This document shows positions 1-3,156 of a DNA stretch of 64,000 bases, piece after piece. Made by a program: the position numbers and the translations under genes. The DNA is from Flavobacterium sp. J49 (GTDB lineage: Bacteria > Bacteroidota > Bacteroidia > Flavobacteriales > Flavobacteriaceae): positions 1 to 64,000 of the forward strand of contig NZ_JAAQQU010000102.1 of NCBI RefSeq assembly GCF_011742145.1, read 5' to 3'. A model generated the notes under the pieces. The model searched no databases, was not told where the DNA came from, and saw only the letters and a list, made by a program, of their open reading frames with translations. Numbering within the stretch: position 1 is the first letter of the stretch; every line of letters begins with the position of its first letter.

Positions 1-135
1 TAACGTGCCGCAGATTGCTACAGTTGCGACGATTTATTACTGTTGATTACAAATATAAAATTCCTTTTTGAGTTTTCGGAGAAAACTCGGGATAATCCCA
101 AGCCACGCAATTGTTGCAAACTGCTGTTATAAGCC
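1..135 (-). other. attC-like recombination site of cassette B
   Basis: An imperfect inverted repeat with its outer arms at 1-27 and 107-135. On the minus strand it begins with an R''-like box ending in AAC (complement of 126-135) and ends with an R'-like CGTTA at the window edge. The last bases of the R'' box, GGCTTATAA, are the exact complement of the first bases of the cassette it closes (657 downward), as expected for an integron cassette that was once a circle. An internal hairpin at 70-88 and a GGG/CCC hairpin at 89-99 are shared with the second site. The left end is cut by the window. Confidence 0.8.
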
Positions 136-657
136 GTTTATTCAGTTATTATTAAGCCACTTTCTTTGTCAAAGTTTTCCCTTTCAGATTCTGTCATTCT
201 GTTTCTTAATAATCTAATTGTATATCCGCCGTGTAATTTTGAACCTTTCACAAACATCCAATCACTAACTTCATTTTTATTAATTTCTACGGTGTCACCA
301 ACTTTAATTCCTTTAATTTTTTCCGGTAGATTATTTACAACGCCAATATACTTTCCATTTTCCACGCTAACATAGTCAACCCAAATATGTTCTGCGGTTT
401 CATTTTCGACAAAACGTTTTTTCAAACCAAAGTATGTGAAAACACGGCTGTTATTTTTTACTGCATAATCAAAACTATCTAAAGTTTTTTTGGCGGTTTC
501 AATTGCCATATTCATTTCAGCGTCGTCACTTTGGACGCCATAAATTGTCGGTTCGTTTTCGCGCTCAATTTTGTTTTTTGAATTACAACTAAGAACGCTA
601 ATTGCGATTATTAATATTAATATTCTTGTATGCAGATTTTTCATAAATGGCTTATAA
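4..657 (-). mobile_element. Integron-type gene cassette B
   Basis: A 654-bp unit running from one predicted G^TT cleavage point (between 658 and 657) to the next (between 4 and 3). It holds one promoterless gene whose ATG lies 13 bases inside the cassette start, followed by its own attC-like site. This compact one-gene, one-site layout is typical of integron cassettes. Mobility is inferred; only the boundaries and complementarity are seen. Confidence 0.75.
138..644 (-). CDS. DUF2314 (YegJ-like) lipoprotein, cassette-borne
   Basis: A 168-residue protein with a lipoprotein signal peptide; the lipobox cysteine is in VLSC at about residue 20. The mature part matches DUF2314 as I recall it: an early MNMAIETAKKTL helix, the AEHIWVDYV strand, a KVGDTVEINKNEVSDWM segment and a closing GGYTIRLLR. 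The function of the family is unknown. The start is the only ATG and follows the cassette boundary directly, with no room for a promoter, so transcription probably comes from upstream. The stop codon lies just outside the attC R'' box. A small secreted or lipoprotein cargo is common in integron cassettes. Confidence 0.75.
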   Translation of the reverse strand: MKNLHTRILILIIAISVLSCNSKNKIERENEPTIYGVQSDDAEMNMAIETAKKTLDSFDYAVKNNSRVFTYFGLKKRFVENETAEHIWVDYVSVENGKYIGVVNNLPEKIKGIKVGDTVEINKNEVSDWMFVKGSKLHGGYTIRLLRNRMTESERENFDKESGLIITE

Positions 658-788
658 CGTTCCGCAGCTTGTAACAGTTGCGACGATTAATTACTGATGT
701 TACCAAAGTTAAAATTACTTTTTGAATTTTCGAAGAAAATTCGGGAAAAACCCAAGCTTAGCAATTGTTACAAACTGCTGTTAGCGGT
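651..788 (-). other. attC-like recombination site of cassette A
   Basis: A 138-bp imperfect inverted repeat (arms 651-681 and 761-788). The R'' box (complement of 780-788) reads CCGCTAAC and is complementary to the start of its own cassette at 1343. The R' box reads CGTTATAAG at the junction with cassette B. Compared with the site at 1-135, an arm pair changes T-A to C-G and the inner hairpin (724-742) changes A-T to G-C, so the fold rather than the sequence is conserved. The stop codon of the upstream gene lies inside this site. Confidence 0.82.
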
Positions 789-1343
789 AGTTTTTTTATA
801 CAGTTCCTTAATTTCCTTTTCTTTTTCACTTTCCATTTTCAGGCCATTTTTTAGTAATCTGTCTAAAATTCCCAAACAACCTGGATTTTTATTTTTTGCA
901 CCGTCCATTAAATATTTTAAAATAAAATCTTGCTTGCTTTTATCGAGTTTAAAAAACTGCTTTTCATCTCTTCCTTTATTTTGAGTATCTAAAAACCAAA
1001 AGTAAATTACTACACGAGCATTGTCGCAATTATATTTGTCTGCCATTATAATAGCTACAGGTAACAATTCATAATATTCAAATCGAGTGTTACCATAATG
1101 ATCTACTAAGTTTCCAAATGCTTCAAAGTCACCATTTTCAACGCATCTTTTTTTCAATTCCGAAACTTTTTCCAAACTGAAATAACGTTGGTTTTCTTCT
1201 TTTTTGGCTAAGGGTTTCTTTGCAACAGGTTTTTCCGTCGAATTGTTACAACTGATAATTGTAATAACCATTAATAACACAAATAGGTTTTTCATTGGTG
1301 TATTTATTGCAAATGTTGTTAAGATGGAAAAAATTACCGCTAA
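658..1343 (-). mobile_element. Integron-type gene cassette A
   Basis: A 686-bp unit between the cleavage point at the attI-like junction (1344/1343) and the one at 658/657. It carries one lipoprotein gene and one attC-like site. Its first bases, TTAGCGGTA on the minus strand, are the reverse complement of the R'' box at its far end, the diagnostic relation for a formerly circular cassette. It is the first cassette after the recombinase. Confidence 0.78.
768..1295 (-). CDS. Hypothetical lipoprotein, first cassette of the array
   Basis: A 175-residue protein that I do not recognise. It has a lipoprotein signal peptide (MKNLFVLLMVITIISC, lipobox cysteine at about residue 16), then a lysine-rich linker and a helical domain. 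The last nine codons and the stop lie inside the attC-like site, so the C-terminal residues TTANSSL are written by recombination-site sequence. That overlap is typical of compact cassette genes. No promoter is evident between it and the recombinase gene upstream, which runs in the same direction. Confidence 0.72.
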   Translation of the reverse strand: MKNLFVLLMVITIISCNNSTEKPVAKKPLAKKEENQRYFSLEKVSELKKRCVENGDFEAFGNLVDHYGNTRFEYYELLPVAIIMADKYNCDNARVVIYFWFLDTQNKGRDEKQFFKLDKSKQDFILKYLMDGAKNKNPGCLGILDRLLKNGLKMESEKEKEIKELYKKTTANSSL

Positions 1344-1420
1344 CTAGCTTATATGTATAAACAAATCATACTTATCCGTCCAAATTGGGTGGTATAGGTA
1401 TGAGTGGTGTCATACTTATG
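1344..1420 (-). promoter_or_regulatory. Candidate attI-like insertion site
   Basis: The junction GTTAGCGG (complement of 1337-1344) marks where the first cassette meets sequence next to the recombinase gene. Beside it are a direct repeat of TCATACTTAT (1366-1375 and 1410-1419) and an inverted repeat, GTATGA at 1398-1403 with TCATAC at 1410-1415. Paired repeats of this kind could be recombinase binding sites. The role is inferred from position. Confidence 0.5.
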
Positions 1421-1448
1421 GTTTGCTTTGGCTAATATATTAAAAATA

Positions 1449-2492
1449 TTACAAATCATCAAACGGACTCTTAATTTGTTGTAAACTTTTAGTACTTACA
1501 TGCGTGTAGATTTCCGTGGTTTTGCTTCGGCTGTGTCCCAATAATTCCTGTATGTAACGCAAATCCGTGCCACTTTCCAACAAATGGGTAGCATAACTGT
1601 GACGCAACCAGTGAAGTGTGGCCGGTTTTGTGATGCCTGCTTTTTGTAAAGCTTGTTTAAAGGTTGATTGCAAACTCTGCTCCGAGTATTGTTCGCCTTT
1701 CACTTGTCCTTCAAACAACCAAATCTTGGGCTTGTAACATTTGTAATAATCCCGTAACAAATCCAAAACCCTCGGACTCAATGGTGCTATTCTGTCCTTG
1801 TTACCCTTGGCTTGTATGATTTTTACAATATTCCGCTTCGAATCGATGTCGCTAAGCTTTAAGGTAAGCAGTTCCTTTCTTCGCAAACCGCAACTGTAAA
1901 TCAAGCACAACATCGCTCTGTGCTTAATGTTGCCATGCGCTTCCAAAATTTGTTTGACTTCTTCTTTGCTCAAAACATTGGGCAATACTTTGGCACGCTT
2001 CGGTCGATGGATACTTTCAATCTCAATTTTCCGATCCTGAACCGTGCTGAAAAACAACTTAATCGCACTCACCACTTGGTTCTGATAGGAAGCCGAAAGA
2101 TTGTTCTTTAAAATGTATTCGTTATTGTATAAAATAACGTCGTCATTGGTAATATCAGAAGGACGTTTTTGATTGAAGAAAACCAAAAAGGATTTCGCCG
2201 CATCCATATAAACCGCAAGCGTATTTTCGCTGTACCGTTTTGATCGAAGCCAGCGCTTGAAATTTTCCAAACTCCTCAAACCTTCTGCATTGGGCGAGAG
2301 TTCGGTCAATGTCCGCAGTCCCAATTGTTTTCGGTTCTCCTCCGTGTCGGGCAAGTGCCAATACCCATTCGTTTGACTCCATCGCGCACCGGAAAAACTT
2401 TTAATCCAGGTAATTAGAGTCTCGTCTTTTTCAAACCAAACACCAATACGCATTTCGCCTTTGTACTTTACTATTTTGGCACTCCATTTCAT
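1449..2492 (-). CDS. Tyrosine recombinase (XerC/D- and integron-integrase-like)
   Basis: A 347-residue tyrosine recombinase. Residues 1-65 form an extra N-terminal domain, about 73-155 a SAM-like core-binding domain, and 170-340 the catalytic domain. The catalytic set is complete: R204 (GLRRKEL), K229 (AKGNKDR), H294 and R297 (HWLRHSYATHLL), H320 (LLGH) and Y329 (IYTH). The segment AGITKPATLHWLRHS resembles IntI proteins, but the stretch between the catalytic lysine and HxxR is too short to hold the extra domain that marks classical IntI. It is transcribed toward the cassettes. It probably inserts and excises them; a Xer-like or element integrase is the alternative. Confidence 0.85.
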   Translation of the reverse strand: MKWSAKIVKYKGEMRIGVWFEKDETLITWIKSFSGARWSQTNGYWHLPDTEENRKQLGLRTLTELSPNAEGLRSLENFKRWLRSKRYSENTLAVYMDAAKSFLVFFNQKRPSDITNDDVILYNNEYILKNNLSASYQNQVVSAIKLFFSTVQDRKIEIESIHRPKRAKVLPNVLSKEEVKQILEAHGNIKHRAMLCLIYSCGLRRKELLTLKLSDIDSKRNIVKIIQAKGNKDRIAPLSPRVLDLLRDYYKCYKPKIWLFEGQVKGEQYSEQSLQSTFKQALQKAGITKPATLHWLRHSYATHLLESGTDLRYIQELLGHSRSKTTEIYTHVSTKSLQQIKSPFDDL

Positions 2493-2590
2493 AAACAGAA
2501 ATTAAATAGGAATAAAGATACAATAAAATGGAATAGAATGTTTTAAAATTGTAAGTTATTTTTTCTTTTATAAAAAAGTACCAAAAGTCA

Positions 2591-2680
2591 TCCGAAGCGC
2601 TCTTTTACCGTTCCGAAAGCCATAAATGGTTGTCCGAAAAGTAAAATGAATAGTCCGAAAAGCATTCGAAACAGTCCGAA
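2591..2680. repeat. Five-copy 21-bp tandem array with TCCGAA core
   Basis: TCCGAA occurs at 2591, 2612, 2633, 2654 and 2675, each exactly 21 bp apart, with diverged sequence between. Read on the minus strand the array is open and encodes a heptad with Phe-Gly every seven residues, but it has no plausible start. It lies about 100-190 bp upstream of the recombinase start and just downstream of the DUF3788 stop. Confidence 0.85.
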
Positions 2681-2739
2681 GCTCGTTCTTAGGCTGGCAA
2701 GGCTTGGAAATGCTCTAAAATTGGTTTTGGGGCGAAAAA

Positions 2740-3156
2740 TCAATGCGCTATTTTTATCGCAATCAATTTTAGGATGTCTTCGGTAGTTTTTGCCTCTTTG
2801 ATGTCTATTCTAATGCCACGACCTTCCGCATAAACTTTGGCTGCTTGAAGTTCGTTTTTGATAGCATCGGCAATGTCGCTTTCCAGGATGGTATCGGTGG
2901 CTTTTTGGCCAAATACAAAAGCTACTTTAAAGAATTTATCACGGGGCAATAGGTAAATGATGATTCTTTTTTTATCCTTAATTCTAAAACTCCAACCGAA
3001 TTTTTCACTGGCAAAAGACCATTCTTCGATAGCATTAGGATATAATTTTTTGGTGTGCTCCGCAAAAGTTTGCCAATACACATAGGTCTCGCCCAAAGCT
3101 TCTTGAAGTTGGGTTATGGTTGGGATTTCCGATTTTTGGGTGAAAATACTTTTCAT
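2740..3156 (-). CDS. DUF3788 family protein
   Basis: A 138-residue cytosolic protein without signal peptide. The pattern W-SFASEKFGWSFRIKDKKR-IIYLLP-F-VAFVFGQKA matches DUF3788, a family of unknown function common in Bacteroidota and Firmicutes. The start ATG overlaps by one base a TAA that ends a fossil copy of the uvrB 3' end (3156-3222). The gene was therefore probably once translationally coupled directly behind uvrB, before another gene came between them. Confidence 0.75.
   Translation of the reverse strand: MKSIFTQKSEIPTITQLQEALGETYVYWQTFAEHTKKLYPNAIEEWSFASEKFGWSFRIKDKKRIIIYLLPRDKFFKVAFVFGQKATDTILESDIADAIKNELQAAKVYAEGRGIRIDIKEAKTTEDILKLIAIKIAH

Follow-up and report, generated by a model that had tools for sequence, protein, structure and literature searches.

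The first 2,492 nucleotides of the 64,000-nucleotide stretch of Flavobacterium sp. J49 analyzed here (the window, which is contig NZ_JAAQQU010000102.1, our C93, from base 1, in a genome of 3.05 Mb on 105 contigs) are very probably where a chromosomal integron begins, one of a distinct type that spans the Bacteroidota and is run by the adjoining integrase. A sequence-only reading of the same DNA had taken the repeats for part of an integron-like array of cassettes whose attC sites covary, and this is well supported: at least 49 such sites are found genome-wide, and 47 of this genome's own cassettes have the expected ends. The integrase adjoining the array, at 1449-2492, was absent from that reading. 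With its own integrase and its own attI, the system is distinct from the classical integron, as the integrase lacks the IntI-specific stretch and the cores of its sites depart from RYYYAAC/GTTRRRY. It is ordinary in its logic and unusual in its parts, since its integrase is of a type that, by the accepted account, should be incapable of this work. On the minus strand, in order away from the integrase (2492-1449), through attI (1403-1344), to cassette 1 (1343-658) and cassette 2 (657-4), the features are:

1449-2492, minus strand: integrase gene, a tyrosine recombinase of 347 residues with an N-terminal extension of about 70 residues, lacking the segment in which IntI proteins have their specific domain.
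1344-1403, minus strand: attI, about 60 bases ending ..CTAG^TTA, with one inverted and two direct half-sites; the predicted crossover lies between 1344 and 1343.
658-1343, minus strand: cassette 1, from TTAGCGGTAATT to the G of its attC, delimited by end complementarity and by the boundary rule from 17 duplicated pairs in relatives.
768-1295, minus strand: open reading frame (ORF) of cassette 1, 175 residues, with a lipoprotein-like signal (by reading the sequence) and no Pfam family.
649-789, minus strand: attC of cassette 1, including the R'' and R' arms; 147.4 bits and E 8.9e-25 with our site model R1, of whose 42 source sites it is one; fold z -3.0.
4-657, minus strand: cassette 2, from TTATAAGCCATT to the G of its attC, delimited by end complementarity.
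138-644, minus strand: ORF of cassette 2, 168 residues, with a lipoprotein-like signal (by reading the sequence) and a DUF2314 domain.
1-135, minus strand: attC of cassette 2, cut by the contig end; 132.3 bits with R1, of whose 42-site set it is not a member.

The integrase and the cassettes share one direction, and attI sits past the integrase stop codon. Bases 3-1 are the opening bases of a third cassette, where the array is interrupted; the expectation that it runs out to the left holds in the stronger sense that C93 itself ends there, and not merely the window. Both window sites are on the minus strand and measure 127 bases each, with the core AAC..CGTT. What had been described as inverted repeats of about 138 bp are indeed two sites (1-142 and 655-796, 81% alike), but the two repeat one imperfect palindrome in direct orientation and are not an inverted pair. 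The cassette ends are complementary as claimed, without a mismatch in the nine bases quoted and at 94% over 16-17 bases (780-796 with 1328-1344; 126-141 with 643-658), and the assignment of small lipoproteins to both cassettes agrees with the lipoprotein-like signals at the start of the two ORFs. An Rfam scan of window positions 1-3000 gave zero matches at E <= 1.

The further sites with G^TT ends that would be expected of an integron are present in number, both in this genome (48 BLAST matches with one site as the query) and as large arrays in related genomes. In the J49 genome they are concentrated on the short contigs C92 (10.7 kb), C72, C69, C78 and C86, spread along their length. Two of these, C69 and C78, probably overlap and join, because C69:1-747 and C78:5049-5795 carry the same site fragments at a constant 5,048-base offset. 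Smaller and more diverged clusters lie far from the integrase on C26, C96, C94 and C90 (L039-L046), and resemble clusters of attC sites lacking integron integrases (CALINs).

In the cassettes of this genome, the opening bases TTANNNNN are the reverse complement of the final NNNNNTAA. For the 47 complete cassettes found by a motif scan, 227 of 235 variable end positions are complementary, against 95 expected if the ends are matched up at random, and 0 of 10,000 shuffles reached as high a count; in the worst cassette 3 of 7 positions agree. The complementarity extends to base 12, with the exception of base 10. The same holds for 193 cassettes from seven related arrays (excluding cassettes shorter than 100 or longer than 3,500 bases and the single cassette of G112), where complementarity holds at 954 of 965 variable end positions (control, 42.7%) and base 10 is A in every case, never facing T (C in 159, G in 31, A in 3). 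In 180 of these cassettes the longest ORF shares the strand of the attC and in 3 it is on the other strand, while 10 have no ORF of 60 residues; the median ORF fills 91% of its cassette. The products are mostly unknown: 79 cassette proteins from the J49 and G119 arrays fall into 16 Pfam families with 1-2 members each, and PADLOC gave 2 weak matches among them.

Duplicated cassettes delimit the mobile unit in a different way. When 231 cassettes were compared, 33 pairs matched over at least 70% of the shorter member (26 within one array, 5 between J49 and G119, and 2 between G119 and G148). In all 17 of the same-array pairs whose boundaries were measured, identity was 0.998-1 over the cassette and 0.992-1 over its own attC, and then fell to 0.17-0.55 past the next G^TTA. 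To the left, the match ended 2-4 bases ahead of the TT in 14 of the 17 pairs, and 8, 10 and 14 bases ahead of it in the other three. These boundaries therefore fix the mobile unit, and place the crossover at or a few bases from G^TT, without recourse to any model. Judging from these sequence comparisons, the units appear to be one-gene cassettes that move as circles. In the G119 array (L156/L157), cassettes 3, 22, 32, 35 and 43 are the same 326-327-base cassette, present five times and without an ORF of 60 residues; such gene-less cassettes may carry a signal.

These data also bear on the idea that the sites represent an ordinary repeat dispersed between genes, like a miniature inverted-repeat transposable element (MITE) or a repetitive extragenic palindrome (REP). 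Although some sites do lie away from the array contigs (those on C26, C96, C94 and C90), the end arms track the cassette rather than the repeat, and whole cassettes, gene included, are duplicated with breaks at the predicted ends, whereas a repeat would be copied without the neighboring gene. Together with the strand bias of the ORFs (180 of 183 on the site strand), their fill of the cassette, and the presence of attI and an integrase at the head of the array, this leaves the dispersed-repeat explanation with hardly any credibility.

The fold of the sites appears to be under selection. Both window sites, on either strand, have fold z-scores of -2.8 to -4.3, with 0-2 of 200 shuffles folding as well, and the compensatory changes pointed out between them recur on a larger scale. 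Across the 112 sites from which our second model, R2, was built, 92.3% of cells are paired (63.7 when shuffled) and 544 cells are altered on both sides (154 when shuffled), and sliding the partner by 1-3 columns reduces pairing to 26-39%. A point to be set against these figures is that R2 was derived from the very sites tested and the alignment was fitted to the structure, which favors it; two of the five covariation measures (pairs with a double change, and pair types) were only weakly above shuffles, with 46 and 40 of 500 as high. An unfitted MAFFT alignment of 42 J49 sites, analyzed with RNAalifold, reproduced the inner helix, and 11 of 16 pairs had changes on both sides. For the outer arm (NNNNN), the pairing partners lie within one cassette, i.e. 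they belong together in the circle.

For the wider site counts, sites shorter than 110 bases and two minus-strand matches of L156 were omitted, leaving 342, of which 337 entered the core count and 335 the count of loop motifs after those without a GTT or AAC end were dropped. The AAC and GTT cores are present in 337 of the 342, and the RYYYAAC and GTTRRRY consensus sequences are each matched by 6 of the 337, with none matching both. Of 342 sites, 273 fold more stably on the strand complementary to the genes (bottom) and 68 on the top strand; the bottom strand is also the more stable one in classical attC sites. Some attC loops (e.g. window 655-796) contain TAnnTTTG, the motif of the Bacteroidota -7 element; 83 of 335 sites have it on the gene strand and 2 on the other (17.6 in shuffles). 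In 65 cases it stands at one fixed offset, and it is limited by subtype (32 of 49 J49 sites and 51 of 286 others). As a general feature, a promoter in the attC loop was rejected, given that a -33 element at the usual spacing occurs in only 4 of 335 sites and the motif is confined to some subtypes; in the attC of those subtypes, TAnnTTTG is a possible promoter.

A folded strand need not be the substrate: the integrase could recombine attC as double-stranded DNA, as its relatives XerC and XerD do with their duplex sites, and the hairpin could serve otherwise, for example to shield the gene from read-through. In favor of such a duplex route is that the integrase is without the stretch bearing the helix that, according to the accessible part of PMC7790495, docks extrahelical bases in IntI. 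A duplex substrate would not need pairing to be kept by double changes through the arms presumed to bind the integrase, however, and the invariant unpaired A at cassette position 10 (193 of 193) and the better folding of one strand also argue for the folded single strand, making the duplex route rather unlikely in our estimation.

The attI site is also recurrent. Recognizing the 5′ end of the first cassette by its complementarity to its own 3′ end, we found a conserved attI in 22 of the 45 loci tested (the window and 21 others), with the junction 94-137 bases past the integrase stop codon (105 in the window). In all 22 the junction follows AG (AG^TT) and ATA occupies positions -9 to -7. A hexamer at -17 has a direct copy at -60, identical at 91 of 132 positions when compared inside a locus and at 49.6 across loci (0 of 10,000 as high), and an inverted copy at -28 (4.0 against 2.2 of 6 positions); the remaining offsets scanned showed nothing, and bases -29 to -23 read as a direct copy gave no excess (36 of 154, against 39.4). 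The half-sites vary between species and tend to agree inside one.

In named genomes, relatives of the integrase mark 80 loci (the best 80 of 557), in which R2 found 163 sites (E <= 0.01); 160 of these sites lie downstream of the integrase and on its strand, although 684 kb upstream and only 324 kb downstream were scanned. Of the 44 loci where the downstream sequence reaches 1,500 bases or more, 39 have a site. Contigs end within 1,500 bases downstream of the integrase in 36 of the 80 loci, compared with 3 within 1,500 bases upstream, probably an effect of repeats on assemblies. On the single contig of G119, an integrase 92% identical to that of the window is followed by 54 sites in 35 kb, all in one orientation (omitting two weak opposite-strand echoes of the same palindromes). 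Among the best 150 of 154 matches, on which the counts for relatives' arrays rest, the stretches taken from G148, G133, G045, G109, G073 and G051 contain 42, 28, 31, 16, 25 and 5 sites, respectively, each set on one strand, and G112 has 5 scattered matches. As a control, R2 had no match at 62 IntI, XerC and XerD loci (233 kb; two loci overlap). In the fish pathogen Flavobacterium psychrophilum DSM 3660 (L065), the contig ends about 1.2 kb behind the integrase, after two sites.

The system is widespread in the genus and the phylum, where genome counts are not independent by descent, a further point against reading too much into them. Sites (E <= 0.001) occur in 133 of 150 genomes of the genus, as a single match in 13, so the statement that classical integrons are rare in Bacteroidota is not true of this variant, although the system itself is not classical. 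The integrase (E <= 1e-60) was detected in 73 of the 150, 70 of which have sites, and the median number of sites is 15 in genomes with it and 4 in those without (at most 21 counted in each). In a sample of 296 genomes of the phylum, sites (E <= 1e-5) occur in 124, spanning 74 of 139 genera, the window-type integrase (E <= 1e-45) in 96 and canonical IntI over its cut-off in 84. Sites are present in 60 of 71 genomes with the window-type integrase only, in 6 of 59 with IntI only and in 17 of 25 with both. For the organism's own class (73 genomes), the numbers are 55 with sites, 42 with the window-type integrase and 1 with canonical IntI. In G245, G304 and G429 canonical IntI and the window-type integrase occur together, on separate contigs.

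This distribution speaks to whether the array, although real, owes its movement to a different recombinase (XerC/XerD, or a canonical IntI encoded elsewhere), with the adjoining integrase targeting only its own site. Many genomes do bear sites without a window-type integrase, and Xer genes are found in 22 of 25 genomes. We nevertheless judge this very unlikely: the sites follow the window-type integrase and not IntI, no canonical IntI over the cut-off is present in the J49 genome, the XerC/XerD loci are without sites, and the attI half-sites beside the integrase covary between species.

The integrase itself is a clear tyrosine recombinase (PF00589, 147.6 bits; PF13495, 63.3 bits). It passes the cut-off of 220 for the XerA-type family NF040815 (222.9 bits), does not reach those for XerC and XerD, and with 211.2 bits remains below the cut-off of 265 for TIGR02249 (IntI). 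Both the IntI profile and the integron integrase 2a3v align to it in two pieces flanking a gap, which for 2a3v comprises 19 residues in the window integrase and 61 in 2a3v. The gap lies between the K region and HxxR, where IntI has its additional domain. This span is 58-59 residues in the window integrase and in 61 window-type proteins (137 were usable), 60-69 in 30 XerC/XerD proteins, and 100 in 30 of 30 canonical IntI proteins, which makes the window type 41 residues shorter there than every IntI measured; the IntI-specific additional domain (I2 region) is absent from it. Since the I2 helix proper is about 20 residues long in the account given in the available portion of PMC7790495, more than I2 must be missing.

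Trees were drawn from 197 loci with a protein, after removal of columns filled in less than 40% of rows, the IntI stretch included. In the 73-row tree, the window type forms one clade (97/95) and IntI another (100/100), jointly split from XerC/XerD (100/100), subject to a long-branch warning. A quick 60-row tree, which includes 7 rows added by hand from plasmids and distant relatives, agrees. IntI is the clade nearest to the window type in both, and so a candidate sister group, in trees drawn without archaeal XerA. The AlphaFold model is moderate (predicted local distance difference test score, pLDDT, 82; predicted TM-score, pTM, 0.51); its closest fold match is again 2a3v, with low TM-scores of 0.44-0.48, and the best PDB matches by sequence are 5hxy and 4a8e. 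Two further matches in the J49 genome, 36% and 31% identical, are XerD/XerC-type genes. Flavobacterium terrisoli has the nearest named relative (72% identity), and most of the close ones come from the same genus (again among the best 80 of 557). Some window-type proteins carry the NCBI name "site-specific tyrosine recombinase/integron integrase," which is the name of NF040815. One Bacteroidota-type integrase lies on a contig labeled proteobacterial, in a metagenome-assembled genome named Azoarcus (L095), which is probably mis-binned. Among phages, 34 records match the integrase, none of them over 80% of its length.

We propose that the integrase would make and resolve G^TT crossovers between attI and the attC of a circular one-gene cassette. 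Incoming cassettes would land beside the integrase and displace older ones outward, and crossovers between two attC sites would release cassettes as circles. The attC would work as a folded single strand, probably the one complementary to the genes, because double changes keep the pairing and the fold is better on that strand. The sequences themselves show the cassette units with their ends, the attI, the covariation, the link between integrase and array and the lack of the IntI-specific stretch; the catalytic role of this integrase, the single-stranded route and the dispensability of the I2 helix here are what we infer from them.

Several observations count against this picture. The reported need of IntI1 for I2, whose deletion abolishes function (PMC7790495, in the text accessible to us), speaks against equating the two mechanisms. 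Of the 45 loci, 16 gave no attI junction and 7 another kind (six attC-attC, and an odd one of 208 bases in G073). Three of the 163 sites lie upstream of the integrase (L062, L118 and L091), that of L091 on the opposite strand; the sole match on an Arenibacter plasmid is likewise upstream and on the opposite strand; and 20 kb around a 45%-identical integrase in G022 contain no sites. Sites are also present, though in smaller number, in 63 of the 77 genomes of the genus in which no integrase was detected, and in the phylum sample 41 of 141 genomes with neither integrase have them, while 19 of 96 with the window-type integrase do not. The sites without an integrase imply either that sites outlive or outrun the integrase or that distant integrases were missed.

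Among known systems, the sedentary chromosomal integron of the Vibrio cholerae superintegron type is similar in having an integrase, an attI, a long array of uniformly oriented one-gene cassettes, G^TT junctions, palindromic attC sites of about 130 bases and duplicated cassettes. The present system differs from it in the integrase (41 residues shorter at the additional domain, and extended at the N terminus), in its R boxes, in cassette-end complementarity that reaches 12 bases with an invariant unpaired A, and in the common direction of integrase and cassettes. The last feature is shared with the inverted-integrase integrons of the Treponema denticola type, which have been described with canonical IntI. 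The canonical IntI proteins of our phylum sample, although the nearest clade, are separate from the window type in both the trees and the length of the span (100 against 58-59 residues), and rarely accompany its sites. The XerA-type recombinases resemble the present integrase by profile and by structure-database matches (5hxy and 4a8e); unlike them, it heads a cassette array with an attI of its own.

The system is not confined to chromosomes. On the Chryseobacterium plasmid NZ_CP041688.1 (L260), a 64%-identical integrase is followed by four same-strand sites (E 1.1e-16 to 0.0034), and the system is therefore also mobile. R2 found no sites on a C. oryzae plasmid with a close integrase (L259). 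On the Rufibacter tibetensis plasmid NZ_CP012644.1 (L263), a related integrase is followed by a row of small same-strand genes without an R2 match, perhaps a further site subtype. A DNA search of plasmids with one attC as the query gave no match.

A plasmid search with the integrase led to the beta-lactamase gene blaVEB. Among the matches listed (15 of 298 records), five from Klebsiella and Aeromonas have a 49%-identical, 5′-truncated window-type integrase, and in all five a match to blaVEB-3 begins 79 bases after it. In the record examined in full (NZ_CP084417.1, L261:5001-5858), the sequence 75 bases past the stop codon is ..GATATTAGGGAG^TTAGCGGTAATTT, followed by blaVEB-3; an attI with the inverted half-site and the upstream direct one (shifted by one base) precedes the start of the cassette. 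R2 has no match behind this blaVEB-3, so its own attC seems to have been lost. In a class 1 integron, the blaVEB-1 cassette begins with the same TTAGCGGTAATT, ends with AACTACCGCTAAC and has the unpaired A. R2 matches the blaVEB attC with 31.1 bits and E 1.4e-4 in L264 and L265 and with 39.6 bits and E 2.7e-6 in L267 (the E-values are rough), has no match in the fourth locus scanned (L266), and finds nothing else in the four loci at E <= 1 despite their aadB, cmlA5, arr-2, qacL and aac(6′)-Ib cassettes.

The veb1 attC has been described as 133 bp long, with 2L/2R boxes off the consensus and a long terminal structure, and the aadB attC as 50 times more efficient than it with IntI1 (Aubert et al., PMC3518468, in the sections available). 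A home of the cassette in the present system would explain these oddities, and the window-type integron pool looks like its source: the veb1 cassette shares the R2 match and the end pattern with the unpaired A, and an attI and a truncated window-type integrase precede blaVEB-3, although the cassette is now borne by class 1 integrons and plasmids of Pseudomonadota. No chromosomal blaVEB cassette was found in the 395 Bacteroidia genomes searched. VEB relatives (E <= 1e-60) occur in 21 of them, the best at 56% identity, and of the 20 such loci scanned, one has an adjoining attC-like site, which ends without GTT (the 3′ arm was sought from a later GTT). A survey of the origins of resistance cassettes (108 examined) used 11 taxon models, none of them, in the accessible text, for Bacteroidota (PMC8352920).

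Reviews count Bacteroidota among the integron-bearing phyla (PMC8618304 and PMC9668308, as far as the available extracts go), which fits the canonical IntI found here outside the organism's own class. The IntegronFinder 2.0 survey lists, in the portion available, one complete integron in Bacteroidetes proper, that of Salinibacter ruber M1, plus Chlorobi and Ignavibacteriae (PMC9024848), and an earlier survey, by its accessible text, excluded integrases that had neither the additional domain nor the intI patch (PMC2426708). The literature searched, which did not extend to preprints and most subscription journals, describes neither chromosomal integrons of the Flavobacterium type nor integron integrases lacking the additional domain.

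Taking these strands together, we lean modestly toward a broader interpretation, in which Bacteroidota would hold a second integron lineage without the I2 helix, either a pre-I2 ancestral state or an independent solution to the recombination of folded sites, with a recognition mark of its own, which may be the invariant unpaired A in the R box. Surveys built on the IntI domain would have missed this pool, from which blaVEB would have passed to class 1 integrons, and the blaVEB attC would be a poor IntI1 substrate because it evolved for another integrase. In the current account, as set out in the available text of PMC7790495, the gain of I2 turned a duplex recombinase into a reader of folded single strands; natural integrons with integrases that lack the I2 stretch make that account directly testable. 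The integron census also changes, with at least one site in 133 of 150 genomes of a single genus set against these earlier surveys, and a clinically important cassette, blaVEB, acquires a likely source and a possible reason for its odd behavior.

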